From Bolinopsis microptera (Eukaryota; Ctenophora; Tentaculata; Lobata; Bolinopsidae), in the NCBI RefSeq assembly GCF_026151205.1, contig NC_087073.1:11386636-11434577 (forward strand): 47,942 nucleotides of DNA, in the 5' to 3' direction. Positions 5,601 through 40,341 of the stretch are shown here, in pieces; the stretch's first letter is position 1, and every line of letters starts with the position of its first letter. The notes under the pieces are model-generated. The model was given only the letters and a program-made list of their open reading frames with translations. It was not told the origin of the DNA and made no database searches. The translations under genes and the position numbers were made by a program.

Positions 5601-5632
5601 ATTGTAGCATGTGAAGTTAGGGGTACTTTGAT

Positions 5633-9392: not shown

Positions 9393-9431
<39 letters not shown>

Positions 9432-16370: not shown

Positions 16371-16759
16371 TACTGTTACTGATTAAGACTGCAACTTGGT
16401 AATTGCGCCAGGTGCTGCTCTGCTATAACGGTGGTTTAGTCGACGGAATATTATCTTTTGTGATTAATAATCGGAGCCTTGATTTTAACCGGTCAGACTT
16501 TTATTAACTCAGTTACACTTACAGAGTAAAAAGCAAAAGTTATGCGGTCTGTTATAGCAGTACCACTGGCGCTGTGAAAAGGGGGTTAAGAAGGAGGGGG
16601 GGGGGGGGTGGGCTCTGGCAAATGATGAATTTCGATGAATGCTCAGTACAGATAAAAGTTGTAATTCATGGGTTTCTATGGAATTAGAATAATCCTACCC
16701 TAAAATAAAGTTGTAATAAAACTGTATTATTGCAAATACTCACCGTTATATTTTGTCAG

Positions 16760-17923
16760 GTAGAAGCTAATCTGTACGCTTTTGTGTACGCGACAGTAGC
16801 TATGAACTGTACCGAGAAGGAGTGGGAAGCTATTTTCCAGGAGTACACTAAGGAATCCCTGCAGAGCAAGCAAAGATATCTTATGAAGGCGTTAGCGTCC
16901 ACTTTTAATGTGGACATCGTCAAGAAACTCCTCAAATACACCATGGGTATGTTAAACCTGATAATTCTGTAATATTTCATACGTACTTGTTCAGATTTTT
17001 ATTCAGATTTTACGATAGTGTTCACATAACGAGTACTGTGCAATGAAAATAATTAGTTTACCATTGACACTAACAAAGTAACTGACTCAGATGAGAAGAT
17101 GATCAGAAGACAAGACGCCAGGATTGTTCTGATGCACATATCTATGGGAAGCTACCCGGCCAACTACGCTACCTGGGACTTTCTCAGAGAGAACTGGGCC
17201 TTCTTCTATGAAGAGTGAGTCACTGAGGAGTGTTATAACACAACCGGTACCCTACTTAATCTGTAGTATTATAACACTACACAACCTGGCCAATTTCTCT
17301 TATAGTGCCACTTTTAGTGTGACTTTTAGTGTGACTTTTAGTCAAGTTACCAAGTTACTATGGTTGCCAATGATTCTGTACGGCCCAAACTGACCTGAAC
17401 TTGTAAACATTTTCCCAATAATGATGTTAATAAGGTTTGCACACTTGCAGGTTTGGTCACACTAACTCAGGGTTCGACCTGCTCATAGAATCTGTTATCG
17501 GCCAGTTTTACAAAAAGGAAGATATAGATGAAGTTAACAAGTTCTTTGATAACAAGGACGATTTGGGCAGCATTGAGAGAGGAGTTAAAAAAGGTAACGT
17601 TCTTATTTCGTTATTCTTATAATAACTTGTAATTAATAAGTAATTAATAAAGCTGAAATGCTCATACTATTGAATATCTCCATGAACATTGAATATTTGG
17701 CTATGAATAGTGTGTTCTGTGCATGGTAATATAGTGTATTTACAACGATTACAACCCAAAATCTAAATATCTTGAGAACAATCTAAACCCGTTCAGCACT
17801 AACACAAATGCTGATTTCTAACACTCTCCAGGTCTAGAAGCAGCCTCACATCGGAGAGAGTGGTTGAAGAAACATAAAGAGCATGCTGGAGGCTGGTTAA
17901 AAGTTAACTTCCCCCGAGACTAG
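16760..17923 (+). CDS. M1 aminopeptidase (APN/ERAP-like), last four exons
   Basis: Exons 16760-16946, 17091-17214, 17451-17593 and 17832-17923 continue the M1 protein from the exon ending at 5097. Every phase matches, and the frame ends in N-F-P-R-D-stop. They encode the C-terminal HEAT-like helical domain of M1 peptidases. Family marks include N-L-Y-A-F-V-Y, the E-W-E-A-I-F-Q-E-Y segment, R-R-Q-D-A-R, a W-D-F-L-R-E-N-W motif, and the closing E-R-G-V-K-K-G-L-E-A-A pattern with a following W. In known members this domain caps the active site and limits substrate length. There is no C-terminal ER-retention signal. The intron before this block is 11.66 kb and holds two other genes and several transposons. 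A duplicated, broken set of the same four exons lies at 42271-43651. Confidence 0.9.
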
Positions 17924-18877
17924 ACTAGATATCCCGCTCTCCAAACTTTCTCTCTTCAGTCTTCACTTGTCAGCCGACAACATCCAGTTAAAACATGCCT
18001 CATCACTAAAATTGTTGACACCGGAATAATGTAATTGTGTCTGATTTGCGGGACGATTAGGGCTGTTTTCAGTAAATTATTATGTCAATTAAAAGAATTC
18101 CAAATAAGCGTGCCACGTGATCTGTTAATTAAAACATACTCAGTATATTTGAAATGGTGTTAATTTCGTTATTATGTATCAGGAGGAAAAGCGTGTAAAT
18201 TTGGACAAATTTAGTATTGTAAATTAGGATTGATTTGGAAAGCTTTCTTATAGCTGACGTATGTTATTAGTAATTTAAATTAGAAGAATAGTTCTTGATT
18301 TAATTTAGGAGTGTCCGTGTTGTATCTTCATTCACCACAAATGGTTTAACTTAATTTTGCATCCTGTTTTGTTTTAATCTTTATTTAAATTTGTGTATTA
18401 TGATGAAATATTTATTCAGCTGGCTGGAACAGCTAAGATTATTTTATCATCGTCGAACCCGCGGAGTGATTTGATTTTAGATTATGAAAGCAGATTCAAC
18501 GACTAATTTTGACAAATTTAAATTTGTTTAATTTAGATTTCTGACGGCGACGATATTAGTCGTTGCATCTCAAAGGAAGTGTTAAGCCAGAAGATTCACG
18601 AGTTTCCGCGGTTTCAGAAAGTTTTGTTTATTTTGGATCAAGATGAAATTGTATTTAATTTGTCTTGTTTAGTTTTTCTGCAGTTTATTCATTTTGTTGC
18701 ATTTCCAAATTCTTCCCGATGAAAATAAAGGAATTGTAAGTATATTCCTTATTGGATATATTTCGCAGAATCAGGAACATTTTTATTGAATTTGAGTTTA
18801 AATTAAAAGTTTTAACCGGTGCTCGAGTAAGCAGTTCACGAGTGATATTAAACACTCTACACTCTACACCCGATATA
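17924..18877. other. M1 gene 3' UTR and duplicated non-coding flank
   Basis: AT-rich sequence closely matched by about 43652-44636. A candidate polyadenylation signal AATAAA lies near 18723 (GATGAAAATAAAGGAATTG), so the last exon may extend about 800 bases past the stop. No other gene is seen. Confidence 0.5.
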
Positions 18878-19046
18878 AGGGGTCGTTCACATATTACGTA
18901 ATCACTTTTTGAAAAATTTAACCCCCTCCCCCCCTCCGTAACCAGTTTTACGCATATCTATTGTGTTAAAATTACGCTAGCGTAATCATTTGGAAACCCC
19001 CCTCCCCCTCGGCTGATTAGTGATTACGTAATATGTGAACAACTCC
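18878..19046. mobile_element. mariner-type MITE shared by both duplicate copies
   Basis: Ends GGGGTCGTTCACATATTACG and its inverted partner, with TA on both sides. The interior has C-rich runs. The paralogous copy at 44637-44805 occupies the same position, so insertion preceded the duplication. Confidence 0.85.
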
Positions 19047-19904
19047 TAATATTAAAATCAGTTCTTGAGGGGTTTAAAAACCACCGTTATGTGAGCTGAC
19101 GGCACCGGTTCAAATGGATTTATACTGCTAATCTGCTATCTCTACTACCTGTGGATCAATTCTTGCTATATTTATTTAAATTGATTTTGAATGAAATTTA
19201 TCTCTATAAAAAAATGTATATTTAAATACAAGCGAATATCATGACACATAATAAATTGTATAATTTTATGATATTATATTTTATGTTTTATGACACCAGG
19301 CTAATTAACAATTTATTTCAGCTTCAATGCTAATACAATTTAACATTCGCAATTACTATAAATAGTAATATATGGTAACTTCAAACTCGGGAGATCAAAT
19401 TGTTTTCATCACTCATAAGACGATGTTGTATAGCGAAAACTATTTCTGGTATATTATTTGTCTAATGTTTTATTAAGTTTAAGCTCTCGTGTTATATTTG
19501 TTGTTTTGGAAATTACGGGGTATCAATTTGTATTTTCTCCAATTTTCATCTAAACGCAAAGCAAGATCACTCGTTTTAATTTTATGATTAGTTCAAACTC
19601 CCTAATCGAGGAAATCAAATAATGAATGAAATTTTGAAGAAACATAATTATTAACATTGTACATATTGATATAGATGAGTAGTCCGTAGATCCTACCAGT
19701 ACAGACAGATCCGTCTAACAAAATAATTTTCCGACAGTTTTGAGTCCCACTAGGTGTCCTTTATGGCCGACCAACTTTTCCAAACTGTTCTTAAGTTGCT
19801 TTATTATATAGTTTATGTAATAAGCGCCATGAGTTGGCACAGAATTTTTCCTCCGATCGCGATTTTTGATAAATTTTGTATCAAAAGTTGTCTAAAAATG
19901 TGAA
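19047..19904. other. non-coding end of copy 1 and spacer
   Basis: To about 19745 this matches copy 2 (44806-45340 and 46892-47030). After that it is unique. No gene is seen. Confidence 0.5.
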
Positions 19905-20245
19905 TAATACAAAGGATGATGATTAATCACTATACACTCGACTGTTTCGTGACTTTTTCAACCTGTTCTCTGATCTAGCTGGCCCTGAAAGGCTATTCGA
20001 AATCATAACCCAATCCCTGACAAAATCATATGCTGAAACCCTAACGAGAAATTAGGCCAACTTCCTTATAAGGTCATATCACATGATCGAGACAGCTTTT
20101 CGCCAATATCTTGCCAGGGGAGTATTTTGACCCTATGTCATGCTTGGTTTCAACTGTCCCGTCGAGGGCCCTTTTAGAAAAATTTCAAAGATAGATTGAG
20201 TGTAAAGTGATTTAGCACGCTTGTAATATGTAATACTAATACAAA
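19905..20245. repeat. dispersed repeat, second copy inside the foldback element
   Basis: The segment from GATGATGATTAATCAC to GTGATTTAGCACGCT matches 45903-46310, which is the central part of the foldback element. It lies outside the duplicated unit here, so it is a separate dispersed copy or the remnant of one. No coding capacity. Confidence 0.65.
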
Positions 20246-21017: not shown

Positions 21018-22056
21018 CTAGTTGAGCATGCAGAACATGAACACAGCCAGATCGTAGTATGCTGACTCCCCCATACCATGCTTCATCTTCTTCCTCCACA
21101 CTTCCCAGTGTTCTGTACTATCCACGTGCACTGATATAATTCCTCCATCATCTACTAGCTTTTCTGCAATATCTTTCAGCAGCTGGGGTTGTAAGATTTT
21201 TCAATAATAAGAGCAATTCAATAACCACATGTGTCGTTATTACAGAAAAAACTTGCAAGAGATACGATTATGTTTATACATATCTAGCTTACCTCAATAT
21301 CGGAGAGATCAAAGTCAATTCCATCAAAGTCTGCTTGTGACCCCTCACCGATTCTTGGTCGGACAGTACCTGGACAGTACCTGTACATCGTGTCAGCTGA
21401 TCGTCTCTCTCTAGATTCGAGGTCTGAAATTATAATTTATTTGTATACTAAATGGTGTATATATATAAGGTATATACTGGTCCTTACATACCCTGTTATG
21501 TGGGTACGACCTTTATTACGACGAAACTTACAATGATCTGTAAGGGTTTTGTTTCCAGAGGTAATTCCAGGGTACTTGATCTTGAAGGCCATGAGATTCA
21601 GATAGTTCAGGACATTGTTCTCTGCAACATTGGTTGCACAACCACAGATATCAGACTCAGGGTCCAGTAGTCGTTTTACCAATCTGTACTGTTCGGCGGC
21701 GCTGTCCCAGACCTCAGCCATATGAAAAGCGTGGGTCAGTTTATCGAGGGTGTTGTAATTGGTGAGACCCCACCAGGTTCTGTTCATGTTCCTCATCACC
21801 TGTGCAAATATTAATTGGTCAGTATCAAGGTGCCGGGAGTCTTATTTCAGGACTGAAGAAATTTATTATTCAAGTAGTCGGACGATAATGCCTAACTACG
21901 ACTCCTAAACTACAAGGTTCAACGTATCTCCCTCGTTACTGTTCGCCACACTTACCAAGTCGAATGTCTTCATGCTCTGTGTCGAGAAGTCTTCATCATA
22001 CCCTGCTAAAGGTGCAATGGGTAGAATCCTCGTGTCGCTCATCAGATCCATATTTA
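21018..22056 (-). CDS. secreted protein copy 2, exons 3-6
   Basis: Exons in coding order: 22056-21956, 21799-21532, 21423-21293, 21182-21018. They match exons 3-6 of the gene at 12132-14363, with the same splice positions and open frames. Exons 1-2 lie across the giant transposon at 40341-39943. The fifth exon is 15 nt shorter and its middle is rewritten: the Asp/Tyr-rich stretch of copy 1 is replaced by a Y-R-Y-C-P-G-T-V-R-P-R segment carrying an extra Cys. The other exons differ by few residues. The shared stop and W-W-G, C-G-C and N-R-T marks are kept. If the 17.9-kb intron is spliced correctly, the gene can still encode a full-length secreted protein. Family unknown. Confidence 0.7.
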
Positions 22057-22155
22057 CTGAAATATCTTAAATAATGTCGTTCACTTCACTAATTTTATTG
22101 GGAAACCCACTCACATTATCTAATAGCATGCATTATGGTGGTCATTGGCCACAAC

Positions 22156-22439
22156 TAGTGTATGTACTAAGAGCATCAACTTGCGGGTGAACATTTTATG
22201 TCTCAAAACCCAACATATTATACATCATTGGAAAGGTCTCATTGAGTAGAGTCGTTTGGTACCAAGTTTTAGGCAAATGGCTGTTCCTAGCGAAAGTTAT
22301 AGCCCGTCAAAGTCCCAAAAATGGTTAATTTAGAAAATGGGGCGGGGCATCGTGTTTTTAAAGTTTTTGACGAATTTTTTTTACAGCATATTGTTTATCA
22401 CATTTTTTTACACAAGATTTGCTGTATGCCGTAATTTTA
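22156..22439 (+). repeat. left terminal inverted repeat of the giant element
   Basis: It pairs with 39593-39876 in inverted orientation. Both begin TAGTGTATG at the outer edge and end at GCCGTAATTTT inside. The two ends differ at about ten positions, including TTAGGC/TTGGGC and CAAAGTCCC/CAAAGTTCC. Confidence 0.93.
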
Positions 22440-23039
22440 TTTTTTGATATTTTAATCAAAAATAATTTTTATTTGGATTTAAAAGTACGCGCTACGCCGC
22501 GCAGTTAGAAATCGCAATAAGGAGATTTTACCAAATTTTTTGTTGCGCAATTTTTTTTCTCATATCAAATTTACATGCTCATGTCGCATTTTCGGTTGCA
22601 TCAAATTCAGCTGACGTCCACAACATGAAGTTTAAATGATCACACTGTGAAATTGGTTTGAAAGTATAATGCAAATATTCTTAGTTCTGGATAGTAATAG
22701 TATGTATACACTTAAAGGAAGAATCCAGGGTTTTCCCTATACTATCCAGTATTGTCGACTGTTTTACAAATTTGAAGATATGGTTGAATTTACTGTTGTT
22801 AATGTTTATTGCTCTAGTCTGATGTATGCAATGGAATCACGATGATTGGTATCTATCTAAAAACATATATAATGTGTAATGCAATTCATTATAGAATAAA
22901 TGCAATTAGAAGTATCAATACCAGTTCTTATCTTACTAGAAACATGAACTGAAAGCTATAATACTAAGGAAAGCTATAAAGCACAGTTACAAAGTGTAAC
23001 ACTCTACTCACCACAGTAGAGTTCAGGGTGACTTTGCTA
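22440..23039. other. left subterminal region of the giant element
   Basis: AT-rich with a GCGCTACGCCGCGC word near 22490. I see no coding frame, RNA gene or repeat. Confidence 0.45.
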
Positions 23040-23516
23040 AAGGGGAAAGATTGGTTAGAACAGTTAAGATCCTCCGTAGTCCTTAGTGGTTTTCTAATTA
23101 TCCTCATTCTGCGTGTCATGATATGGATGCCCTTGCAGAGGAGGTGCTGGGATGTTTCTGCTTCTCCTGAAAGTGTCCACAATCTTGTGTCTCGAAGTTG
23201 ACGTTGTTAAACTAGTGGGCTGTGATCTATCCTGACAGTGGCCATGTCAGCCATCTGATGTGAGTTCCAGAAAAATTAAAATACCTGTATTTATGTTTGT
23301 GAAGGAACATCTCAAGTGTGATTTTCCTTTGTCACTGAGTTTGGCCTAATTGGGAGAAAGGGTTCTGGTCCTATGGGGATGTTGTTGGATTGATCATCCC
23401 TTGCTAATTCGTCCGCTAGTTCTTTACCGTTACTCCTTCATGCCCTGGAACATCCAAGTTCTACTCGATGTGAATACCTATTGAATTGAGTTGGTCTGAG
23501 ATGTTCAGAACGAACC

Positions 23517-23777
23517 CAGGCACGTAGACAGGGGGGGGGGGGGGGGCTAGTGTCCCCTAGACCGTAGGAAATGTCAAAATCTATTTTGCAAAATTTTCCG
23601 GGGCCTGCGCCACCCTAGCCCCCGCCAAGTGGCTCCGCCCCTGGGCCCCGCTGGGCCCTGTGCCCCCAGACCTCCGCCACAGCTTGCTCGCTTTGCTCGC
23701 TGCGCAGCTGGAATGGACGCGTTGGCTCGCCGACAGGCCCCCCCCCCCCCCAAAGAAAAATCCTGGCTACGTCCCTG
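23517..23777. mobile_element. hAT-type MITE nested in LINE copy A
   Basis: Ends CAGGCACGTAGACAGG and (reverse complement) CAGGGACGTAGCCAGG, with perfect 8-bp duplications AACGAACC at 23509-23516 and 23778-23785. LINE copy B has the single unduplicated AACGAACC at about 30010-30020, an empty site. The interior is G/C-run rich and non-coding. The 92-codon minus-strand frame at 23615-23893 runs across the insertion edge and is not a gene. Confidence 0.92.
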
Positions 23778-24835
23778 AACGAACCTGGAGTTAAAACTGG
23801 TGCTGTTAGGCGCTTTAAATGCAGCCTGGGAATCTGAGAGGAATTAATGATTGATGGGGATCCTAAGTTATCATTAGTCCAGATACTTGCCATGTGTAAT
23901 GCAAATAGTGGGTACTATTTTCTCAATGAAAGTAAAGGAGGATTGTCTGTCCTGTATTGTTACCATCTAACGTTGGGCTAACAAATTGAATCCAAAGTTT
24001 GAGTAATGCATTCGTTAAAATTTTGATGTCCTAATATTTGCATCCCTGAGGCATTGCATTGTTGTTTGTTCCTGGTCCGATTATGCTTTAGTGAGCTATG
24101 CTGTCCACCAGGGTACTGTAGATCTAAGGGTTCCCCGTGTAATGTGACAGGCTATGATAGAGCATCTCTGGAGGATGTCCAAGATGAACTGTTTTCGAAC
24201 GTTAAGAACTTCTGCTGTATAAACTGATTAGAACCAGTAATGGTGTCAGTCGAACTCTGCTGCTATTAGATGATTGTAGAGCAGTTTGTCACACTTCAAT
24301 GAAGAGTGTGGCAAAGCTAACCCGGTCCCCTAATCCTAGGTTAAATGTGATGGCCTCAAGATGAGCCCTTAGCTGTCTAGCTGAGATGACCTGGAATATG
24401 GTTACTGGAGGGAGAAGTGCTAAGGATTCTCGCTATCAGTGTGTCCTCACTCCTCATAGTCAGAGTGAGAGATTTGACATCCCTAACTCTGTCTTATCAC
24501 GAGCCTGTGTCTAGCGTGTGTCAGCCCTTATGCATTACCTATCTTAACTGAAAAAGACCTGAAAAGTGGTTACTTGAGGGAGTGCAAAGACTACTAATTA
24601 TCAGTGTGTCTTTGTAGTCAGAATGAGCGAATTGGAATCCGCAGCTCTGTGGTGGGTGACTTCGTTGGGACCTAAAAGCCGAAGGAGAATTTCTTGGTGA
24701 TTTAATAGCTCTTAGAGCTAGGTATCTTTGTCTAACGTGTCGTCATTCGTGCGTGTACTATCTGGTATCCTGATATCTGAAAGAGAAATTTCCTGATGCT
24801 TGGTAGCTGTTAGTGTCGACTTCCTAGTTCCTGGT

Positions 24836-24990
24836 AACTTTGAGTTGGCAAGTCCCAACCTTTGTACTCAACAAGAGAGCACACCACCCGTTACTGCCAA
24901 CCAGGCCACATGGGAACTTTGAGTTGGCAAGTCCCAACCTTTGTACTCAACAAGAGAGCACACCACCCGTTACTGCCAACCAGGCCACAC
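24836..24990. repeat. 79-bp tandem duplication in LINE copy A
   Basis: The block starting AACTTTGAGTTGGCAAG at 24836 is repeated from 24915. Copy B near 31013 has it once. Confidence 0.85.
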
Positions 24991-25021
24991 CACGCTGAGG
25001 TTCGGAGAGGATTTCGTGACC

Positions 25022-25556
25022 CTTAGACTAAAGTTATATGTATGACCACACCCTTTATCTCACTTGTTTTAAGATATCTCTGCTTCTGATAAGAGCTAAA
25101 CTTTCGTCTTGTGTATTTAATTTTAAATGATCATGGTTTTAGAGTCTTCAGACTTCGGGTTGTTGTGTTTTCAGTTCAGACCCCATTTTTACACTCTCAC
25201 GAGCATCGATTGACACACTTCATACAAGATATCTCAGCTTCGGTCTTTTGATGGGAAATAAGTGGTCATCTTGGTCATTACAATGGTTAGAATCATCTCA
25301 ACGAGATAAACAAATTGCTTGATAATTTCGTCATTTTAGTTTTACATAGGTTTGGCGCCATCGTTTTAGAGCATATTCTTGATTTCATGACCTATAGTAA
25401 CATAAGATAATGAAGTTTCTAAAATTTTGACAAACACGAGTATAAGCAAATCAATGTTAATTGATCAATGATGATTATGTTGTAATATAATGACCACATA
25501 ATTTTTTCTTTCGTGAATTTTCACATCCTTTCAAGACCTACTTTTCAGCATTTTTG
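25022..25556. other. 5' flank of the giant-element gene, with a dispersed repeat
   Basis: About 25195-25320 shares a diverged repeat with 47563-47690 (landmarks AAGATATCTCAGCTTC and GGTCAGAATCATC). The rest should contain the promoter of the gene at 25557. A possible splice acceptor (TACTTTTCAG) ends at 25548, so an upstream non-coding or short coding exon cannot be excluded. Confidence 0.5.
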
Positions 25557-28500
25557 ATGGACATTAGGATTCGAAAGATATGTCCAATTTGTAAGACGAC
25601 AGGACGTAAACCGCTTATTGTCGGAAATGATACTGGTAATTCTACAATAGCAAAGAACCTCCTATCTCATCACGTGAACCACGGGAGTGACATAGACCTT
25701 TATGAGATGGGATGGAGCGGTTTACGTGACGACCACGAGTCGATAGCCAACTTTTTGAACGAAATCAAAGCATCCTTTCACCAAGCATGCAAAAAACGTT
25801 ACCAGAAGAAAAACGAGACAGCTACCGCTTATGCCCCCATAGCGGCAGCTTCTCAATTAAACGAGGAAGAAGTTATCCAGCAAGTCCAAGCCCTTCAGAA
25901 TACCCTAGAAAACAGCAATGATTTAGCAGCAGTAGGCAATCCAATTGTTGCTACAGAAGATGAAGTAGAAGAAAGTGACTCGGCCAATACCCCCTCAAGT
26001 GAAGCAAGCCAATGGACACCAGGGAAACGGCTTATCGAAGATGAGGACCTTCCAAGCACTCCAAAACGTCCATGTCACTTACGACGAGTGAGGCTGATGA
26101 GAGCATTGCTTGCTAAGATAGAAAAAGGAGGAATTTATTCCCGCACTCAGCTCTTTAGTTTGTTTAATGAACTTGTATCATCAACTCTATCAGATAGATA
26201 CAAGGACGAAGAACTTTTTCACAATGAAATATCATTTTTGTCTTCCGTGAAGACGCATATAGGAACAGAAATTGTAATTGAACATGATGGGTCGTGGCGT
26301 TATGTCATGATCTGTTCAAAACAAAACCTTCATGGTATCATGAAGCAAGCCTTTGAGAAGGAGCAGGACAGTAACTCTATTCATGTCGACCTCCAACTTG
26401 TGCGGAACTCGATTGTTAACTGCACATCAGGCGGTAGATTCGCTGGATCGTTTTCCGAGGACATCATTGAACAAGTTTCTGCTCCAGTAGATCTTCGAAA
26501 GACGGTCAGCTACTTGTGTTACGGGGTGTCTGACGTGGAGTCTTTTGATATTTTGAGTATATCAAACTCAATCTATTACAATCATCGGAAAAGACCTGAT
26601 GTTCTAAAAATGGTAAGTTACATTTGAATAATATTGTAATGTTGTAATATGCTTCCATCACTCCTGTAAGGAGTAGATGATATGAAACATAACAAATGAT
26701 GTTCAAATCTTATTTGCAACACGACCGCAAAACTTTCCATAAACAGTATAACCTAAAATACATCCGTTTGTTCTGACCAGCAATTTAATGAACGATTCAA
26801 TAGTTTCTCATTTACTTTCCATCCAGGACCCATTGTATAGAAGGAGGGCTGCTGAGCACGAGACCAGTACAACTCATTATATGAGTTTGAAGTTATACGG
26901 AGACACTCAGCGAGCTTCCGTCATGGATCCTCTGACTGCTACTGGACAGGTTAGGAAGTCTATATTTTAATTTACTATTTCGTTTTAATGACCGCGTCTT
27001 GAAACGATACCGCGTATGTAGTTGGATTGACCACAAATAATTAACTTTGTAAATTTTTACTTTAATAAGAAGCTGCATAGCGTATATCGATATATTTTAT
27101 TTCATTAAAATTATTAACCAACTGTAAGTATTATTTTCATTTTCAGGTATGTCATTTTAGGAGAGATAGGATGATGGTCATATCCTTGGCAGAACTCTCA
27201 GCCAAGACGTATTCTAAGAACAAGGTGGTCTCTCCATTGAACTGTCGGATGGGACTGTTCCATATTCACGGAAAAGACAACTTGGACAGCAACGTCGCCA
27301 GCAGGATTGCTTCTGAGCACTTCCACGGAACATCAATGTCTGTTTTCCAGTTCCCAACGCAAGGTAAGAAGTATATGCAGGTATTGACGCCAAAATTCTT
27401 ACATGATACCTGATAAAAGTTGGCTTTTATAAGAAGTTTAAAACAACTCGGTACGAAGAGCCAACAATATTCTCCCGAAATGATGATACCGTCAGCCGCT
27501 TTTGCCCCGATGAATTAGTAGCCTCATGCGTAACCGTATTGCTATTATGTTTAAAACTAAATATTAAGATGTTTCTATTGACACTGTTTTTAGATAATTG
27601 TGGTACCACCATGGAAACAGCGGAATATGTGGAAGTAAAAGAGGTAACAACACCTCTACCTGATTACTTTTCCTATGATCCCTGTAAAGAAACGTTTATT
27701 CCGAAAACATACAAACTTGATTCTGTTCAACGTGGAGAGTGTCGAGAATTGAACACAGAAGCAAAGGTATTGGTAACATAGAAACATTTATCAAGACGTA
27801 CATTAAAGTATACATTAAAATATATTAAATTAATATAGTATCTTGTGGACATATCTTGTGGATTATTGTGAGGGGCAACATACGAGAGTGGAAAAATGTT
27901 CCGAAAATTTGCCTAAAATTTCTTAATGCGTGGAAAATTTGACACATAGTGCGGCTTGGGAGCGGCAAATATTTGGAATATGCGGCAAATGCGAACCTGC
28001 AACGAATTTTAAGCAGATATTTCTGTGTGTTGGAAAGCTACCCACAAATTATTGCAGGAGGTAATTTTAACTATTCTTTCTAAAAAATATGTCAGCTTGA
28101 AGTTAAAGAGCTTTAGTTAATTTGAATAAAAATCAAATATATATACAGTCCTCAATAGTTTGCTTGTGAATGTCTTATAATGGTGAGATATCCCCTGTTT
28201 AGTGAAAAAGTTAACCTTTTTGGGAGCCGTCGATATACTGTAAGAATCAGACGGTGGCGGTGCAAGACGTTTGAAAACGATCCATAATTGGAAATCAATT
28301 GGTTTAAAGACAGTTAATTGGACATAATTTGTAACTGATTCTCCTTATTTTGAAATTTACCCAGAATATAACGATAGATTGAACTTGGTTTTTATAACTT
28401 CAATTAAATGAAAAATGTGCCTTAAGTGTGAAGCACTGAAGCTGTGCCAAAAATGTGAGAAACGACTGATACTGCTAGAAACGGCTTACAGTGGGAAACC

Positions 28501-31500
28501 GCTAAAAGTAAAATGCGATTCTGTAGCCGTCTCATTTATATGTTGCCTCTGATCATTTTACCCTACTTTAATCTTCTCGGAAGACGGACACTTTATACTG
28601 AAGGATAAACGTCTAGTCGAATTGGTGATGGTTTTTACTCCCGATCCGCTGGATACGTCTTCTCACGCATCTCCAAATTTTCATTTTTCTTTGTTACTTT
28701 AAACGATTAACTGTTGCTCCCAATCAGATCCAGGAAGCTCGTGTAAAGGAGATAGCTTGGTTGAACTCTGTGTGTGCAGCATCTGAAGATTCTAACGTTA
28801 TCACTTGGGGAGTGTTTCACTCTCAAACATCAAGCGCTCCTACTAAAACCATCGTTGGGACATACCCCCTACAAAAAGAATCTCCGACTTCCCACACTAT
28901 GATGAGACACACGATCGATATTGCCAAGTATGTTCTTTTTGACAGAAAATGTCTGTCTAACCGAGTAACTGTGTATTGTATTATTATTTGTGCAGTATAT
29001 ATATATACATATATATCAACACCGACTTTTAATGTGTAGGAGTACAGCTACAAAATATATATATATAATATATGCACTTTGGTATATTTTTTAAGTATAA
29101 GTGGTACAGTGAAATTAAGTTCATGAAATAAAGTTTCGTTTCAAGAAACTCTCTCTCTCTCTCTGTTTTGGTCAACGGTTTCTGGCCTCCTAGTGAAGAG
29201 GGAGGCCTTCTCGCCGTGCCCACAGAGTGTGACTCCTGCTAGCCACACTCCAGGACTCCCTAAGTATATACAAAAACATAGAATAATAGATATCAACGCA
29301 ACAGACCTCTGGAGTCTCGAAGCTGTTACTACCTTGCTCAGAGCAAACCCACTTCAGATGTTCTTCTTTGGCGGGCAGGCGAGGGACTTCCGAGCATGGT
29401 CCACACCTGAATATGTGTCACTATCTGGGATGGTCCTGTGTGGGTCTAGTGTATGATTGTTTATGAACCTTGGTGTATGTCCTAGATGCTTATCCAAATA
29501 GATCGTCTCTGTCAAACCTTGTTGACTGTTCCACGAATTTGATAATGTGGTCGAGTTTACTATTGATGAGTTCCTCAATTGTTAGGATGGGTTTACCAAA
29601 TATCCTCATTCTAGTTGTCATCAGCTGGATGCATTCACATAGGAAGTGTTGTGATGTTTCTGCTTCCCCTGGGCAGTGTTCACAGTCTTGTGTTTCGAAA
29701 TTGGAGTTGTTTGCTACCGTCTGGAAGTATGCTAGTGGGCTGTGTCCTGATAGTAGCCATGTTAGCCATCTGATGTGAGTACCTGTGATGTTAATTTTCT
29801 TGTACCTGTTTTTGTTGAGGAAAAATGTTAGTGGGGTTTTTCCTTTATCACTGAGTGCCACCTGTTTATACTTCTTGATATGGAGATTGAAGAGGTAATC
29901 TTTTATTTGGGTGTTGATTATAGTTCTTTACCGTATACTCCTTCATGTCCTGGAACAAAGTTCTACTCGATGCGAAAACCTAGCGAGTTGAGTTGGTCTG
30001 AGATGTTCAGAACGAACCTGGAGTTAAAAGTGGTGCTGTTAAGGGCTTTAAATGCAGCCTGGGAATCTGAGAGGAATTTATGATTGATTGAGATCCTAAG
30101 TTATCATTAGTCCAGAAACTTGCCATGTATAACGCAAATAGCGGGTACGATTTCCTCAATGAACCTGAAGAAGGAATATCTGTCCTGAATTGATACCATG
30201 TAACGTCGAGCTTAAAAATGAATCAAAAGTTCGAGTAAATCGTTAAACGTTGTATGTCCTATTTGCATCCCCTAAGCATTGCATTGATGTTTATTTCTGG
30301 TCCGGTTAGCTTTGCGTCTCAGAAATAAAGAGGTCCACTATGCTTAAAGAGCTAAGCTGTCCACCAGGGTACTGTAGATCTAAGGGTTCCCCGTGTAATG
30401 GGGCAGGCTGTGATAAAGCATCTCTGCAGGATGTCCGAGATGAACTGATTCGAGTGTTGAGAACTTCCGCTGTAGAAACTGAATAGAACCAGTAAGGATG
30501 TCAGTCAAACTCTGCTGCTACTAGATGATTGTAGAGCGTCCAGTCACACTTCAATAAAGAGTGTGGCAAAGCTAACCCGGTCCCCTGAAAAGTGGTTACT
30601 GGAGGAAGAAGTTCCAGGAATTCTCGTTATCAGTGTGTTCTCGTAGTCAGAGTTGAAATCCCTAATTTTGTCTTATCACGAGCCTGTGTCTAGCGTGTGT
30701 CAGCATTAGCTGTCTTAACTGAAAAGACCTGAAAAGTGGTTACTGGAGGGAGGAAGTGCCAAGACTACTCATTATCAGTGTGTCCTTGTAGTCAGGATGA
30801 GCGAATTGGAATCCCTAGCTCTGTGGTGGGTGACTTCGATGGGACCTGAAAGCTGAAAGAGAATTTCCTGGTGATTTAATAGCTCTTAGAGCTAGGTATC
30901 TGTGTCTAACGTATCGTCATTTGTGTGTGTACTATCTTGTAACCTGATATCTGAAAGAGAAATTTCCTGGTGCTTGGTAGCTGTTATTGTTGACTTCCTG
31001 GTTCCCATGGGAACTTTGAGTTGGCAAGTCCCAACCTTAGTACTCAACAAGAGAGCACACCACCCGTTAGTGCCAACCAGGCCACACCACGTGGAGGTTC
31101 GGAGAGGATTTCGTGACCCCGTTTCAAGAAACAAACATTATATTAACCCAACTTAACCAGGAAACCTTACAGGAAAACAACGGCCTTCTTAAATCCGGGA
31201 CAAGTGACAGTTGACGTATCTGATGAGCCACTGTATGCCCGATGTAAAGAGATCCAGTGGTTTTACCCGCAGCAATACGGGAAATCTACTTACTTTCCAT
31301 TGATGGGCGGCTTTCATATCGAGAAGGTAAGATAAGAGAGTTTACCTTGTTTGCCTATTTTGGTTTCATGTCTTTGTTTTTATATTCAACAGCATTTTTC
31401 CACTGAACACTGCCCATCACAACACTGCACGATCAATATCGATAATATCGTTAGTCAAAAATTGTTATTTAACGCTGCATATCTTTTCTCTTTGGACCTT

Positions 31501-34387
31501 ACTATGTATTCAGATGGTCCTGACAATGTACGCTCGTCTCGTCGAGGGGAGTGGCCTTGTTGAGTGCTTGAACAATGCTAACATGACCCAGACTGGAGCT
31601 GGAACTGCTTTGATCTCAGTGTCGAACAATGTATCCCGATCAAAGTATATTCTCCAGGTAATAACAAATTATTGAATGAGGGGTAATTATATTTGGCGAT
31701 ATGCTTGATTTAATTTTGCATCAACGGTGCATGATATCTGATTCAAACTAAAGCCTGAAGTGCATGACATAAATAAAACTTTGTTAATTCCATTTCAAAA
31801 TTTGCAGCCTCATCTTAGACAAAGGTCATCTTCTCAAAGATCCGTAGGGCGTAGACCTAGGAAAGATCTGTAGTCTGTACATGTATCTCTAACATATTGT
31901 TAATATGTACAATATGTACAATATGTACATCTTAAGCATGGGCACCCTAATCGTGTTTTTAAGCATTTCCAGAGAAAGTGTGTTTATATCAAAAAATTTG
32001 ATTCGTTATTTTTATATTAGAGTGTTTTATTTCAAAAATTCTATCATCAGGTTGTGACTGTCTCGCTTTACAAGGCTAAGATTGCTGCACATGAATGCAA
32101 TCATGGAAGAGACTGGGACGAGTGGGAAAAATCTAGCCTCATAAATTCAGACATGTTCCACTATTGGAATATGATCTTGGACTTGGGGATATTATACCTT
32201 CTTCTCGAGAGAGCATCGAGAGAACGCGATTTCGCCTTGTATTGTTCAGTGCTAGAAAGTATTCTACCCTACGCTTTCATGCTGGATAGAATAAACTATG
32301 AACGATGGTTGGCTGTGCATGTAGATGATCTTCAGCAGCTACAGTCAACAAACCCATCTCTGTATTCAGAGTTCCTTAAAGGACATTTCGCCGTATCGGT
32401 GACAGGAAGACCCTTCTCTTCTATAGCTTGCGATCAAGCTCACGAACAAACAAACAAACTTATCAAATCCTACAAGGCAGCATTAGGTAGTGACATCGGC
32501 TCCATCTGGAATCTAGCGTGTCCAGAGCTGATAAGAGTCGTGGGAGAGTTTGAGGACATTATGGGTATTTCACGTGAGGACGACTATGAGCATCGTCATG
32601 ATGACCATACGTCCGTCCAAACAGCATTTTTGAGAAACGTAAAATCAGCTTATGAAAGCATCATACGTTCCACAAACCCGTTCAGTGCTGATCATAGCTT
32701 AATTGTCTTCCTCCATAATGGAGAATCCATGAACTCTTGTAAGATCATGACGGAAAATCTCAGATCTTTGGTATCCAAAGGAAAAGAATTATACTTGATA
32801 TTCAAGGAAGAAAGATTAGTGAAATGCACTACAGACTTCACTGATCCCGTTAAAAAACACTCAATGCTCCTCCCTGGAGATAAAGAGAAGCTCCCGCCTA
32901 TAGTAGTAGGACTAACTTCTTATCAGGAATTAGCATTCATTCAGGAAATTAAAGATGTTGTTTCTGATAGGTTTGATGAAGCTGTCGAGGCGTTTGAGGA
33001 TGAGCCATTTAATGTTCCTGGTGCCTTTACTAAACACGGAGAAAGTTTCAATTCTTCGAAGAGCGCCGTACTGAAAAGGATTCACAAAACGTCATCATCT
33101 ACTAAGGAAGCAGCTTTTGCAGTTGATGGTGCACTTATTGTTGACATCAGTTTCGTGGTGATTCTTCTTGGAGCTGCCGGAAAATATGTGAACTTTTACA
33201 GCTTCTGTGAAGCTATCTGGAAATATATATCAAACATTGGACGCAACAATTGTCGTATCGACATTGTGTGCGATAATTATACTGACAAACATTTGCTCAA
33301 AGAAAAAACACGGAGTTCGCGGGGTTCTGGAAGTGATATTAATTTTTCATTACAATCACCGTTCCCCAAGGACTTCGTGAAAGATTTTATGAAAAACATT
33401 AAAAACAAAGAGAAGTTTTATGACTTGTTAATTTCCTTTCTCTATGAGAAATCATTATCATTAAACAGAAAGTATGTTTTCACGAACCGCCGAAAGGTTA
33501 CTTCAAATCATATCTCAGAAATGGAAGATTGTAGTCACCTTGAGGCGGATTCCCGAATCGTACTTCATATTGTTAGTGCGATTCGGGAAGGACTGAAGAG
33601 AGTTGTTGTTAGGAGTAATGACACTGACGTTTTAATCATATTGATTCAGTATTATAATCACTTCTGTGAAGTGGCCAAAACCGACAATTTTAACATCATA
33701 TTGATGTCTGGGAAATCTGCTACTGGCATCCTCTTCATTAACATTAACTTGGCATCCAAGTCGTTTACTCCACATCAGCTACGAGGATTACCCCTACTAT
33801 TTTCAATGTCAGGGTGTGACTATGTGGAGTCATTTTATGACGTTGGACAACTGTCATGGCTCAACATCTATTTAAAAGATGATATCATTCCTCAAGTTTT
33901 TAGTGAGTTAATGGCGGATCCTCTGAAGCTAATAGACAAATTTGAAGAAGTTATGCAATTTGTGTTAACAACCTACAAAGTTAGGAATCCGAGTTTGGGT
34001 TGCTCGGTTGGTAGAGTAGATACCTTCAAATTTAAGACAATCAAGACTCTGCGCCAACTCCCACCATCTAAGGCTGCACTCTACCTGCACATGCGCCGTG
34101 CTCTGTATGTTGCAACGAATGTTTGGGGCCGAGCTCATATCCCTGAACCTCCCCATGTGGATCCTTATCAGTGGGGTTGGGTGAACTCGAACGGTGCCTG
34201 TGTTCCCTTGTGGACAAGCCGCGTGTACGATCTATCTAATAAAACGAGAGACCCTTTTCTTAAACTAAGAAGCCGTTGTTCTTGTGGTCGAAGCGGAACA
34301 TCGCAACCCTCACTTTGTAAAAACTGTTCTTGCAAAAAGTTGAACATGAAGTGTTGGAAGAAATGCGGTTGTTTTGGGGATTGTTGA
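25557..34387 (+). CDS. giant-element protein with FEN/XPG-like nuclease motifs, 1467 aa
   Basis: Exons: 25557-26612, 26827-26949, 27147-27363, 27594-27766, 28728-28927, 31173-31326, 31514-31657, 32051-34387. GT-AG sites and phases agree at all seven junctions (4404 nt, no stops). Visible parts: an N-terminal C-P-I-C with following H-H (about 8-36); a Ser/Glu-rich linker (about 110-165); and in the last exon D-Q-A-H-E-Q-T-N-K (817-825). Acidic motifs follow in FEN1/XPG order: V-D-G (1047-1049), C-D-N-Y (1096-1099), E-A-D-S-R (1187-1191), S-N-D-T-D-V-L (1211-1217) and S-G-C-D-Y (1276-1280). The last 35 residues are a C-x-C-rich tail. From memory, similar proteins without a function are numerous in cnidarian genomes. 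It is the only intact gene of the 17.7-kb element, so a role in excision or integration is inferred. The ATG at 25557 is chosen as the first in frame. Intron 5 holds LINE copy B. An acceptor at 31161 would add 12 nt in frame. Confidence 0.85.
29150..31119 (-). mobile_element. RT-less LINE derivative, copy B, with 13-bp TSD
   Basis: Flanked by identical 13-bp direct repeats CGTTTCAAGAAAC (29137-29149 and 31120-31132). Its 3' end on the minus strand is a (GA)n tract (29150-29164). It encodes a P-W-W segment near 30370, then directly an RNase H-like D-S-Q-A-A-like segment near 30050, then a 123-codon C-terminal frame (29861-29490) with W-L-L-S-G-H-S-P, C-E-H-C and E-T-S-Q-H-F-L-C-E-C. No reverse transcriptase motif is present. 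It occupies intron 5 of the giant-element gene in antisense orientation, and the exons around it stay in phase. Confidence 0.85.
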
Positions 34388-34727
34388 TATGGTTTTAGTT
34401 GTTCATCATGGTTATATCTTCGAAATGATCATATGTATATCATAACTTGATTGTAATTTTGATAATCATTAGTACGACGTTTATAAATAGGATTTATATT
34501 GTTTAGGAATTTACTTAGGAATTGTATTTAGAATTTTAGTTATTTTTTCATCTAGGATTTTATCAAGGATTACTGAATACTGAGTGAAAATGTATTACTG
34601 ACGTAGATCTGTAGTCGGTTACTAAAATACAATGCTAGGCTGGATGAAGGACGTCTGATTCGCCTCTAAAGGGAGTAGAGTTTTGTGATGTGTGCAAAAG
34701 TTTAATGGATCCCAACAAAGTAATGGG
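34388..34727. other. 3' flank of the giant-element gene
   Basis: AT-rich, presumably 3' UTR. The first AATAAA-like signals occur in the adjoining tandem array, where each unit carries one or a close variant. Confidence 0.5.
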
Positions 34728-36502
34728 TATATTTATTATTTATGAATGTTTCAATATGGTTCGTTTCACAATCTCTTGTGTGGGGGCCAAGGATTGTGAA
34801 AATAATATTGTTTTGTAATTAGTTGTCGTTGTTTGGTTATACCATGTTTATTGTATAATATATTTTCTTGACCAATTAAACTTTTTACGCACGTTCTGAC
34901 AATGGGCAAGCAGGACGAGTCCAATATTATTTATTTATGAATGTTTCAAATTGGTTCGTGTCACAATCTCTTGTGTGGGGGCCAAGGATTGTTGAAATAA
35001 TATTGTTTTGTAATTAATTGACGTTGTTTGGTTATACCATGTTTATTGTATAATATATTTTCTTGACCAATTAAACTTTTTACGCACGTTCTGACAATGG
35101 GCAAGCAGGACGAGTCCAATATTATTTATTTATGAATGTTTCAAATTGGTTCGTGTCACAATCTCTTGTGTGGGGGCCAAGGATTGTTGAAATAATATTG
35201 TTTTGTAATTAATTGACGTTGATTGGTTATACCATGTTTATTGTATAATATATTTTCCTGACCAAATAAACTTTTTTACGCATGTTTTGACAATGGACAA
35301 GCAAGACGAGTCCAATATTATTTATTTATGAATGTTTCAAATTGGTTCGTGTCACAATCTCTTGTGTGAGGGCCAAGGATTGTGGAAATAATATTGTTTT
35401 GTAATTAATTGACGTTGATTGGTTATACCATGTTTATTGTATAATATATTTTCCTGACCAAATAAACTTTTTTACGCACGTTTTGACAATGGACAAGCAA
35501 GACGAGTCCAATATTATTTATTTATGAATGTTTCAAATTGGTTCGTGTCACAATCTCTTGTGTGGGGGCCAAGGATTGTGGAAATAATATTGTTTTGTAA
35601 TTAATTGACGTTGATTGGTTATACCATGTTTATTGTATAATATATTTTCCTGACCAAATAAACTTTTTTACGCACGTTTTGACAATGGACAAGCAAGACG
35701 AGTCCAATATTATTTATTTGTGAATGTTTCAAATTGGTTGGTTTCACAATCTCTTGTGTGGGGGCCAAGGATTGTGGAAATAATATTGTTTTGTAATTAA
35801 TTGACGTTGTTTGGTTATACCATGTTTATTGTATAACATATTTTCCTGACCAACTAAACTTTTTTACGCACGTTTTGACAATGGACATTGGACAAGCAAG
35901 ACGAGTCCAATATTATTTATTTATGAATGTTTCAAATTGGTTCGTGTCACAATCTCTTGTGTGAGGGCCAAGGATTGTGGAAATTATATTGTTTTGTAAT
36001 TAATTGACGTTGATTGGTTATACCATGTTTATTGTATAATATATTTTCCTGACCAAATAAACTTTTTTACGCACGTTTTGACAATGGACAAGCAAGACGA
36101 GTCCAATATTATTTATTTGTGAATGTTTCAAATTGGTTCGTTTCACAATCTCTTGTGTGGGGGCCAAGGATTGTGGAAATAATATTGTTTTGTAATTAAT
36201 TGACGTTGATTGGTTATACCATGTTTATTGTATAATATATTTTCCTGGCCAAATAAACTTTTTTACGCATGTTTTGACAATGGACAAGCAAGACGAGTCC
36301 AATATTATTTATTTATGAATGTTTCAAATTGGTTCGTGTCAAAATCTCTTGTGTGAGGGCCAAGGATTGTGGAAATAATATTGTTTTGTAATTAATTGAC
36401 GTTGATTGGTTATACCATGTTTATTGTATAATATATTTTCCTGACCAAATAAACTTTTTTACGCACGTTTTGACAATGGACAAGCAAGACGAGTCCAATA
36501 TC
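34728..36502. repeat. 196-bp tandem array, nine units, inside the giant element
   Basis: The landmark CAAGACGAGTCCAATATT recurs at about 34916, 35111, 35307, 35503, 35699, 35902, 36098, 36294 and 36490. Spacing is 195-196, with one of 203 caused by a 7-base insertion. Each unit has an inverted repeat CACAATC...GATTGTG around TCTTGTGTGGGGGCCAAG, and in most units an AATAAA in GACCAAATAAAC. Units differ at a few positions, and the first two share private variants (GGGCAAGCAGG). It starts 340 bp after the stop codon of the element's gene. No coding frame. Confidence 0.95.
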
Positions 36503-37850
36503 ACGCTATAATTAAATTGAATCAACAATTTAAAATCCATGAGTACCTTGCATTTAAATTTGTTAAAGAGCTTTGACTTTTGAGAAAAATTACAAATTTT
36601 GTAATTGTTCATTAGCAGAGATGACGTTTAAAAACGCTCAACGGCAGCCTTTTGTTATTAAATTCTTATAATTCAAGTTAACAGTTTGTTTTATTTTACA
36701 ACGTGTTCGAGTGGCATGCAAGAGCTATTAAACATTTTAGATAGATGAATTATTGCGATTAAGAATCGTTTCTTTTAAAAACCGAAGCATCTCTGCTTAA
36801 GAGAAATAAATTATGGCTCGATGTTTGTCACAATACATTTCTGTTTTATTTTCTCTATCATTGAACTACTAAATGTCACCCCAAAAGTATTTAAAGGATA
36901 ATTTTTACATACACAAAAATCATACTAAATATTTTTTTGCTTATCTGCATACTGCGTTATAATATTATTAGCAGCTAAATGTGTTTGTCTCAGAATAGAA
37001 AAATGGCTACTACTCTAAAGAAAATGGGGCATTTGCTGACATGTAAGGTCAGTATTGTGCGAAGCATATTTTATACCAGATTATGTTGATTGATGCTGGT
37101 TGTTCTTTTAATAAAATATTACTGTCCTATTAGAAGGACCACAGGGGGTTTAATTAATGCAATAACAATTTAAAATGCATAACTTTCCTTCTCACCAAAC
37201 GTGAAACGAAGGCAAATCTCATGTGAAATATTTTCAGGATTGTACTGATTCGGTGACCAGATGTCAGGGTAGGATTGAGTTGACAAAGCTCAAGATGAAA
37301 AGGTTATTCAATATCAGATAATAGTGATTTGTTACATTTACCAAGAAGCTAATTATTTTGGAAATATACTGTGTAATAATGGTTAGTAAGTTCTAAAAAC
37401 AGTGAACTAAAGTGGACGCCATCCTTTGAAAAAATGTAAATTTGTTGCCTTCCTAATCTCGCTTTAAACGGTGCGCTAGAAGGTCATTTGATGCGCTAGA
37501 AGGTCATTTGATCTGGACGGCACAAACCACTGTTTTTGTCTATGCCCCCTTAAGGGGGGGCATACACCAAAACAGCGGTGTTAGGCCCAACAAATTGGGC
37601 CTAATTTGGACCAAATATGGGTGTGGCTGCCCCGCGGGTATCGTTTGGGGGTTGGGGTCGGGGACCCCCTCAAAAGTTCGGTCACTGGTCCTGGTTTGTT
37701 GCTATCTCGTGATCAAGTTTCACAAAAAATATCCATTGCCCCCCCCCCCCCCCCCTTTAACTCTGTATGATAACAAGAATTTCGTTCCTGGAAAGAATTG
37801 GCTTAAATCTCATAAACTAACGATGAATATTTCAATTCAATTAGGGTACG
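36503..37850. other. right part of the giant element, mostly non-coding
   Basis: AT-rich. Two possible short plus-strand exons are visible: 36991-37045 (acceptor CTCAG, reading M-A-T-T-L-K-K-M-G-H) and 37242-37310 (acceptor TTTTCAG, reading D-C-T-D-S-V-T-R-C-Q). They join in phase 0, but their donors are weak. A 21-bp segment (GCGCTAGAAGGTCATTTGA) is tandemly doubled at about 37479-37519. About 37520-37770 is a G/C-run-rich repeat remnant with an incidental 116-codon frame. Confidence 0.4.
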
Positions 37851-37909
37851 AAGATTAAAAAGCACAAGGTCAACTCCAATACTTGTAAGAACTGGAGAAT
37901 AAAGTACCA

Positions 37910-38079
37910 CACCGTACTCGAAACCTAAACGAGATATTATTGATCTTATTGATGAGGAGGAAACGATAAAAGAACTGCAAGAGCTTTTAGATAGCTCTCC
38001 AACAAAAAGTGCAGCCAGCACAGACAGTTTAGAATATGCTGAAATTATTCATAAGAATTTTTTTGCCTCATCGCCCTAA
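37910..38079 (+). pseudogene. acidic coding remnant in the giant element
   Basis: The frame reading P-Y-S-K-P-K-R-D-I-I-D-L-I-D-E-E-E, then E-L-Q-E-L-L-D-S-S-P-T-K-S, and ending S-S-P-stop looks protein-like by its composition and codon pattern. It is closed upstream by a stop at about 37903. A Lys-rich open segment in another frame (K-I-K-K-H-K, from about 37854) precedes it, as if a frameshift separates the two. It could be the last exon of a second element gene or a decayed fragment. Function unknown. Confidence 0.35.
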
Positions 38080-39592
38080 ACGATAACCATTAACCATACA
38101 TATTAATATCTCCAAAATCATTATCTAGGACGTTTTATTCGCATTTGGATGTAACTTTTCCACACTCAATAAATCTGTCGGAAGTCCGAATTTATCTTAT
38201 TGCAATCTCTTGCACTATATATCAGTTATCTGTGCACTTATCGGCACAGGGCCGTTATATTATATGTATTAAGCGGTCTCGCTATATTCTGTACTTGCCG
38301 ACCTTTTGTTTATTTAAGGCACAGTCATATTATAAGAGTGAGTTTCCGGGAGCACACGACAGTATATAAAACAGCAGACGACATGGCGCCAATTTGGGAA
38401 GTACCAACTCCATTTTAACGGATCATACATCTTGCATGATTATACAATATACATCTTATGTACAATGTACATTGTACATCTTAAACGTCGTTATTGGCTT
38501 TTTAGATTTGGTCCATTACATGACGGATAATAATTGTACGTCATGTTCCCAGTTATGATAATCCAAGATAACTGCACTGTACTGGTAAATATATAGGGAA
38601 TAAATGTCCTTCTTCCTGAACATTTTAAAAGCTTGCCCAAACCGAGGTTATTTATGTAGTTGAAGCGGATACCGCTCGAACTACCGTTATTTAATGCACT
38701 GAACGTATTCTAAATCTTAAATACGTCCTTTGAGGTCGCATTTCACAGGACAAAAAATGCCTACCCATTTAAATATTATAAGTTACTAGAATATTAATAA
38801 TTATCTAACTGAGAAGGAAATCTGCTGTATTTTTGTTATAAATTTATTCGAATCATAGTACACTTGATGAGTGATGGTTTTTCAAATGTTTTTATCTGAT
38901 GATGTGATTAACTTGTTTATGAGAAAGAAATGTTACATAAATGCTAACCAGTTTTGAGTCGTACAAATAAGGAGGACTTAAAGACTGTACATTTCTTACC
39001 GTTGAATAAATGCTTAAATCTTTGGAATGATTTTAAAAGCAGCCGCAACCTTGCAACTATGTTATTCAGCAAGTCTTGTTGTGTGAAACAAATATTATAT
39101 TGACTGCTAGTAAAATAGACATTTTAAATTTTAAATTTTAAACTGTATAAGGATCTCTCGATTCGATTTAGAGTCTGATTTTTTAGCTTGACTAAATGAC
39201 TGTTAATCTATATTTTAATTGAAATAAATTTCGATCAAATGCTCCGTTTATTTTTGTTTTGAAAACACAAAAATAACAGAGAAATACCCTCTTCCATTAG
39301 ACATGTAACTTAACCTTCAGTTTGACATCTGTACTGCTGTTACTCCTACAGCTGATGCTAGGGAGGCGCTTATTACACTTAACGGGTGATACTCGTAGGT
39401 TGTAAACCTACAATTATTACACTGACTAACGTGCGAACATGTGCGTTGCTGGGTAAATCTGATATTGTAACGCGCGAATTAATAATTTGTAGACAAACTA
39501 GCGCGCCGGGAACCATGCGGAATACAGATTGTCTCTTTACGTAATTCAAACTCTGATGACAAAATAAATTGATTGTGACTGTAATAATGGAT
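38080..39592. other. right subterminal region of the giant element
   Basis: Non-coding and AT-rich. A TATATAAAA box at about 38362 stands before an ATGGCGCC that opens only 11 codons. A partial copy of the palindromic TTAA MITE end (CGGGTGATACTCGTAGG) is at about 39381. No gene is supported. Confidence 0.45.
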
Positions 39593-39876
39593 TAAAAATT
39601 ACGGCATACAGCAAATCTTGTGTAAAAAAATTTGATAAACAATATGCTGTAAAAAAAATTCGTCAAAAACTTTAAGAACACGATGCCCCGCCCCATTTTT
39701 TAAATGGTCATTTTTGGAACTTTGACGGGCTATAACTTTCGCTAGGAACAGCTATTTGCCCAAAACTTGGTACCAAACGACTCTACTCAATGAGACCTTT
39801 CCAATGATGTATAATATGTTGGGTTTTGAGACATAAAATGTTCACCCGCAAGTTGATGCTCTTAGTACATACACTA
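39593..39876 (-). repeat. right terminal inverted repeat of the giant element
   Basis: Inverted partner of 22156-22439. The outer edge is CATACACTA followed by the AAC duplication. Confidence 0.93.
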
Positions 39877-39942
39877 AACCGTCGTATCTATTTGGCAAGA
39901 TAAAGAATGGCTAGCATATCTTTATCAAAATATGCGAATTAC

Positions 39943-40341
39943 CTGTTGGGACGCCATTTTCCTCCGTAGCATCCTCCTTGAAAAAGTAACGGATACCCTC
40001 TAGTGTCAATGAATGTATGCTATGTGCTACCATTGGGGCAAACATCTTCGATACTCCGGCCGCATCTAGGATTCTCGGGCATTCTTCAGAGGTTGGACCT
40101 GAAGTGTTATTTATCATTTTTATTGTTCACAGAAGAGAGTTTCTACTTACAGGGAATGGAATGCGTTTTATTTTCGCTCGGTCAGTGAATACTAATAAGG
40201 ATACAATGTCTTACAATATCAAAAGTAGAATTGTATGATATTAACAATTAGGAGTGATAAACATCAAAAGCTTTTATAATGATATGTTTGATTACCTGCT
40301 CCAACAGTTCCGATTATAAATACAAGGGCTACAAACATCAT
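39943..40341 (-). CDS. secreted protein copy 2, exons 1-2
   Basis: Exon 1 (40341-40296) encodes the signal peptide M-M-F-V-A-L-V-F-I-I-G-T-V-G-A. Exon 2 (40098-39943) has the same length (156 nt) and splice sites as copy 1 and reads S-E-E-C-P-R-I-L-D-A-A-G and Y-F-F-K-E-D-A-T. The following intron (39942-22057, minus strand) is 17.9 kb long because it contains the giant transposon. Exons 3-6 are at 22056-21018. Confidence 0.7.

Follow-up and report, generated by a model that had tools for sequence, protein, structure and literature searches.

The window (the whole 47,942-nt stretch analyzed, C2:11386636-11434577 of a 264.65-Mb assembly whose contigs are labeled C2, C4, C5, and so on) contained a 17,721-bp DNA transposon at 22156-39876, which probably encodes the transposase of an AcademX-type cut-and-paste family with recent activity. 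It carried an apparently intact gene for a predicted 1,467-aa protein, in which a DDE-transposase-like core appears to be joined to a FEN/XPG-type nuclease region. Likened to AcademX by description, the element quite likely represents a new family within the known Academ superfamily.

The ends of the element and the structures used to define them were as follows.

22153-22155: left copy of the target-site duplication (AAC); junction reading, and empty site with a single AAC
22156-22438, + strand: left terminal inverted repeat (TIR), starting TAGTGTATGTACTAAG; 96.5% identity to the right arm, at least 71 genomic ends
39595-39876, - strand: right TIR, last letters CATACACTA; BLASTN self-comparison
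39877-39879: right copy of the target-site duplication (AAC); junction reading
13782-13795, + strand: paralogous empty site, GGCCACAACCGTCG; self-BLASTN and motif search of the window
34729-36501: tandem array, 9.0 copies of 196 bp; repeat analysis

The identity of the inverted arms was calculated over 283 columns (BLASTN, window against itself). The junctions read ...GGCCACAAC/TAGTGTATGTAC ... GTACATACACTA/AACCGTCG..., with slashes at the element boundaries, and the letters of both flanks thus gave a duplication of AAC, exactly 3 bp. On its + strand, the window had a single occurrence of GGCCACAACCGTCG, which lay 8.4 kb away from the left end of the element and contained one AAC. An initial annotation had described near-identical TIRs of about 284 bp, a 3-bp AAC duplication, and an uninterrupted paralogous target 8-9 kb away, and all three were recovered here. 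The flanks were part of a segmental duplication (13093-13790 vs. 21471-22155, 92%; 13788-14141 vs. 39877-40231, 94%), the pieces of which showed 84-94% identity, plus one short piece at 73% (window self-BLASTN). Because the other copy runs uninterrupted through the empty site, the element is absent there, and its insertion is younger than the segmental duplication. Part of the length of the element was due to a 1,971-bp nested insertion and to the 1.8-kb tandem array.

The TIR tip (25 bp, up to 2 mismatches) was present at least 71 times in the genome (38 forward and 33 reverse), whereas the backwards control gave 0 matches; the TIR search of the genome yielded 40 scored matches from 124 first-look candidates. 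When neighboring + and - tips no more than 25 kb apart were taken as one element, 28 elements of 6,229-19,251 bp were obtained, and 15 tips were left single. Both junctions were examined in all 28, and an exact 3-bp duplication was found in 27 (AAC, TGT, CTG, AAG, and ATT among them), the exception being C5:11765533-11773798. TAGTG was the start on both sides in 27 of the 28 pairs, and the remaining pair had TAGTG on one side and CAGTG on the other. One element with a 3-bp duplication, C10:8247117-8255017, had its terminal base altered from A to G. The tip counts relative to the control, together with the duplications in 27/28 pairs, exclude chance. The large TIR DNA transposon proposed in the initial annotation was therefore confirmed as a multi-copy family, and the genome search suggested there as a check returned paired TIRs, 3-bp duplications, and the same open reading frame (ORF) in other TIR-bounded copies. 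The family has probably been active in recent time.

Eight predicted exons with AG/GT borders, when joined, gave 1,467 codons with 0 internal stops; splicing was judged by eye from borders and frame, and both splicing and DDE catalysis are predictions from sequence. The gene and the structures within it were as follows.

25557-26612, + strand: exon 1 (predicted), N-terminal part with a Cys-rich CPIC start; surrounding 377-aa frame with 98% identity in two other elements
26827-26949, + strand: exon 2 (predicted); AG/GT borders, in-frame join
27147-27363, + strand: exon 3 (predicted); gene model
27594-27766, + strand: exon 4 (predicted); gene model
28728-28927, + strand: exon 5 (predicted); gene model
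29138-31132: nested insertion (29150-31120) in intron 5 with its 12-bp direct repeat GTTTCAAGAAAC (29138-29149 and 31121-31132)
31173-31326, + strand: exon 6 (predicted), VSDEPLYA...GGFHIE, with a candidate catalytic Asp; gene model and alignment with two distant relatives
31514-31657, + strand: exon 7 (predicted); gene model
32051-34387, + strand: exon 8 (predicted), within a 788-aa open frame (ORF788, 32021-34387); ORF list, Pfam, gene model, and relatives
33128-33985, + strand: putative FEN/XPG-type nuclease region; invariant acids in alignment A6 of relatives
34277-34384, + strand: C-terminal cysteine cluster, CXC-like; sequence, with 2 of 15 A6 members matching Pfam TCR/CXC

Exon 8 held the end of the DDE-like core (ACDQAHEQTNK), the nuclease region, and the cysteine cluster. 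The Pfam match of ORF788 to DUF6589 was weak (E = 0.0047, below its cut-off), and the conserved D, D, and E of the core were common to three relatives only. The direct repeat around the nested insertion would fit a retroposed origin, and an ORF in the insertion had a weak zf-RVT match (E = 0.04). Of the 12 element ORFs that reached at least 90 aa, 7 were scanned with Pfam, as were two ORFs outside the element and residues 1-862 of the spliced protein; in the element ORFs and residues scanned there was no match to a CACTA/EnSpm, Harbinger, or Zator transposase or to a helicase, DNA polymerase B, or capsid family.

EnSpm elements also have 3-bp duplications, and EnSpm/CACTA termini begin with 5′-CACTA or CACTG; Harbinger duplications follow the rule TWA. 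Passages in PMC10045372 give duplications of 3 bp for Zator, 0-4 bp for Harbinger kin, and 6 bp for Polinton. The duplications of our family would thus be possible in a CACTA/EnSpm, Harbinger, or Zator element, and the letters CACTA do stand at one terminus, though merely as the inverse of TAGTG. We regard these assignments as very unlikely: the terminus is reversed (TAGTG...CACTA), with TAGTG and not CACTA or CACTG at the start of both sides in all pairs except one; the family duplications break the TWA rule; and the scanned ORFs and residues gave no Pfam match to a transposase of these kinds. A Polinton/Maverick or virus-like giant element after gene loss, which would suit the large size and long TIRs, has a negligible probability, being contradicted by the duplication length (3 bp vs. 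6 bp) and by the element's own open transposase-like gene. The initial annotation had likewise set the element apart from Polintons, in accordance with this duplication and with the lack of polymerase and capsid families in 7 of the 12 ORFs.

The C-terminal region is likely a FEN/XPG-type nuclease in fold and role, although its scores were weak. Five acids were invariant across 15 aligned relatives in A6 (E191, D193, D217, D219, and D283 in the numbering of alignments A4 and A6; E at codon 33542 and D at codons 33548, 33620, 33626, and 33818), a count that left out P0001, P0003, L074, L075, L082, L085, and L087 (mostly near-duplicates), with row P0003, if kept, breaking three of the invariant columns. 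The nuclease acids were retained by distant relatives in the same genome, and the hhalign match to archaeal FEN1 was weak. Profile A3 against PDB gave primase matches only (E = 2-2.4) and no nuclease match. The AlphaFold2 models were too poor for a firm fold (ORF788, pLDDT 43 from a 5-row alignment; nuclease region, pLDDT 61 from a 6-row alignment), and Foldseek returned 0 matches at E ≤ 0.001 with either.

Intact copies of ORF788 with 99% identity were found at C4:8347474-8349837 and C5:1059113-1061458, and a broken copy at C9:4060270-4062631. All three were enclosed by tip pairs (C4:8342208-8357139, C5:1053630-1068693, and C9:4052844-4072094); the two with an intact ORF, intactness here referring to the last-exon ORF, were 14.9 and 15.1 kb long. 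Broken ORF pieces at C2:1427800-1437849 had no TIR tip among those listed. A 40%-identical relative was present at C4:15231618-15233831, and the genome contained 68 matches in total. Many relatives were 22-34% identical, and the open frames that held some of them reached 1,569 aa. Protein database searches gave 5 relatives in all, and among viral contigs 81 pattern matches to related loci yielded 0 confirmed. A relative with a 1,568-aa ORF formed a TIR family of its own, with units of 6,963 and 6,966 bp on C6 and C7, TIRs of approximately 410-420 bp, and 3-bp duplications (TAT and TTA) in 2/2 copies; the C9 copy, masked on its left side, was excluded from this count, and the terminus and duplication were fitted by eye before the junction check.

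The interiors of 16 of the 28 elements were examined in full and grouped by shared sequence. In the first group, the window element was accompanied by three derivatives with deletions (C13, 8.4 kb; C7, 11.1 kb; C13, 6.2 kb), of which the 8.4-kb and 11.1-kb ones kept exon 1. The second group consisted of seven elements that shared the left 3.16 kb wholly or for the most part, followed by a 315-aa frame that was complete in five, shortened in one, and split in one. This frame carried an HW...D...Q..DCG arrangement and matched Ulp1-type proteases weakly (RickCE_cat, E = 0.013; Peptidase_C48, E = 0.033; both below cut-off). The five elements of the third group had only approximately 415 bp at either end in common with the window element; among themselves they shared most of the interior. 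The most unusual feature was that the same ends enclosed three kinds of interior, including one in which the transposase was absent and a Ulp1-like protease ORF was present. Later retrotransposon insertions were observed inside some interiors.

Pairs of the five complete Ulp-like ORFs differed by 0-4 non-synonymous and 0-2 synonymous codons, and pairs of the three exon 1 copies by 3-6 and 1-2, respectively, which are too few for a selection test. Because the complete Ulp-type frames differed by no more than 5 codons per pair, these elements moved recently.

ORF788 was encoded by only one of the 16 elements with examined interiors, the window element, as would be expected if it were a host gene trapped between two TIRs with the true transposase elsewhere. 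We consider this extremely unlikely, since three further TIR-bounded units contain ORF788, and the ORFs related to it occur repeatedly and have a DDE-like core; one family of these relatives is itself bounded by TIRs and flanked by 3-bp duplications.

As an AcademX-type transposon, the element would move by binding of the 1,467-aa protein to the inverted repeats of approximately 283 bp. The DDE-type core would cut at TAGTG...CACTA and join the ends to a staggered target, with subsequent gap repair producing the 3-bp duplication. Fused to this core, the FEN/XPG-type 5′ nuclease would probably trim or process branched or flapped DNA at ends or gaps, and the shorter transposase-less copies with the same ends may be mobilized in trans. 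Few DNA transposon superfamilies are as poorly characterized as Academ, and no established role is known for its fused nuclease. The function of a FEN/XPG-type nuclease in DNA transposition could be addressed practically with this copy, which is apparently intact and recently moved, has precisely defined ends and an empty site, and is accompanied by two further intact last-exon ORFs and many non-autonomous partners.

The element might instead belong to a separate, uncatalogued DDE plus nuclease superfamily, whose resemblance to AcademX would be limited to the length of the duplication and the type of nuclease. No named Academ sequence was matched, all Pfam matches (mainly DUF6589) were sub-threshold, and protein-database relatives were few, all of which would favor such a superfamily. 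It is nevertheless unlikely, because the element agrees with AcademX, as described in passages of PMC10045372, in its transposase-like core, its nuclease region, and its 3-bp duplication, and because the same genome contains many and varied relatives, as expected for a widespread superfamily. We give a similarly low probability to a DDE plus FEN-type-nuclease lineage outside the catalogued superfamilies with one set of ends and three interiors, in which the Ulp1-like protease elements would be a trans-moved partner or cargo. Academ membership of the element is what we infer, because nuclease scores were weak and the comparison with Academ was by description only. The initial annotation had assigned the element to no recognized superfamily and proposed a new type of transposon; this was not upheld, given the agreement of its DDE-type core, FEN/XPG-type nuclease region, and 3-bp duplication with AcademX as described. 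Among the papers listed for Academ, none was seen to describe this transposon family, and the literature searched gave no mention of DUF6589; AcademX appeared only in PMC10045372 among the matches listed.

Among known systems, Kolobok differs from the element in its duplications, which are TTAA and not 3 bp, and in its nuclease types. Its likeness lies in the coupling of a DDE transposase to a nuclease; passages in PMC9587614 report accessory nucleases in the KolobokE, P, and D lineages. According to passages in PMC10045372, AcademH, of the same superfamily as proposed for the element, has 9-10-bp duplications and encodes a helicase, AcademX (Kojima 2020) has 3- or 4-bp duplications, and this difference is linked to helicase vs. 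nuclease. Unlike AcademH, the element family had 3-bp duplications in 27/28 pairs, the length range given for AcademX, as did both counted copies of the 1,568-aa-ORF family. Copies with an intact last-exon ORF were 15-17.7 kb long, compared with 5,565 bp on average for curated bivalve Academ elements (PMC10294476). The element, with its TIRs, 3-bp duplication, and predicted transposase and nuclease, resembles the DNA transposon AcademX as known by description. The AcademX nuclease is XPG-like. The element differs from AcademX in the eight exons predicted for its gene, its 283-bp TIR, and the transposase-less elements that share its ends.

The empty site of the element was supplied by a segmental duplication within the window, where several other repeats and open reading frames were also found.

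Features of the window (strand where assigned)
835-2771: tandem repeat, about six units, each about 331 bp
4991-5607: 11-bp minisatellite, 42 registered copies
6919-9447, minus strand: 842-aa ORF with reverse-transcriptase-like motifs (read by eye)
10319-11596, plus strand: 425-aa ORF with a match to 7tm_1, the rhodopsin-type 7TM receptor family (E = 1.3e-9)
11781-20142 versus 20657-46179: segmental duplication, split into several pieces that are 73-94% identical
34729-36501: nine tandem units of 196 bp, inside the element and directly downstream of the gene
45348-46884: fold-back block, palindromic, with 100% complementarity between its 233-nt arms

The fold-back block is made up of the subrepeats GCGCTAGTTGTCGC and GCGCTGGCCAGCG, and similar sequence forms the insertion site of another element of the family, L041. 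An open frame of 204 aa is present at the minisatellite. The 842-aa ORF also has a GIY-YIG match at its C-terminus, which is weak (E = 0.016); together with the motifs, this suggests perhaps a Penelope-like retroelement.

Among the 28 paired copies read, target-site duplication was absent only from G000:C5:11765533-11773798. In a 6.2-kb derivative on contig C13, one stretch of approximately 224 bp aligned to every 196-bp unit of the window array, so the derivative seems, from this alignment, to have retained a single unit.

Open frames were also found in a distantly related family and in elements with the same TIRs as the window element.

Related units and frames elsewhere in the genome
L089/L092 (contig C6) and L090/L093 (contig C7): units of the distant family, 6.96 kb each
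L037:3332-4276: 315-aa frame, with matching frames in L035, L038, L039, L042, L045 and L048

The C6 and C7 units showed TIRs of approximately 410-420 bp, 3-bp duplications and one 1,568-aa ORF. In the seven same-TIR elements, the 315-aa frame (complete in five) occurred in place of the transposase, and its matches, which were weak, were to Ulp1-type cysteine proteases.
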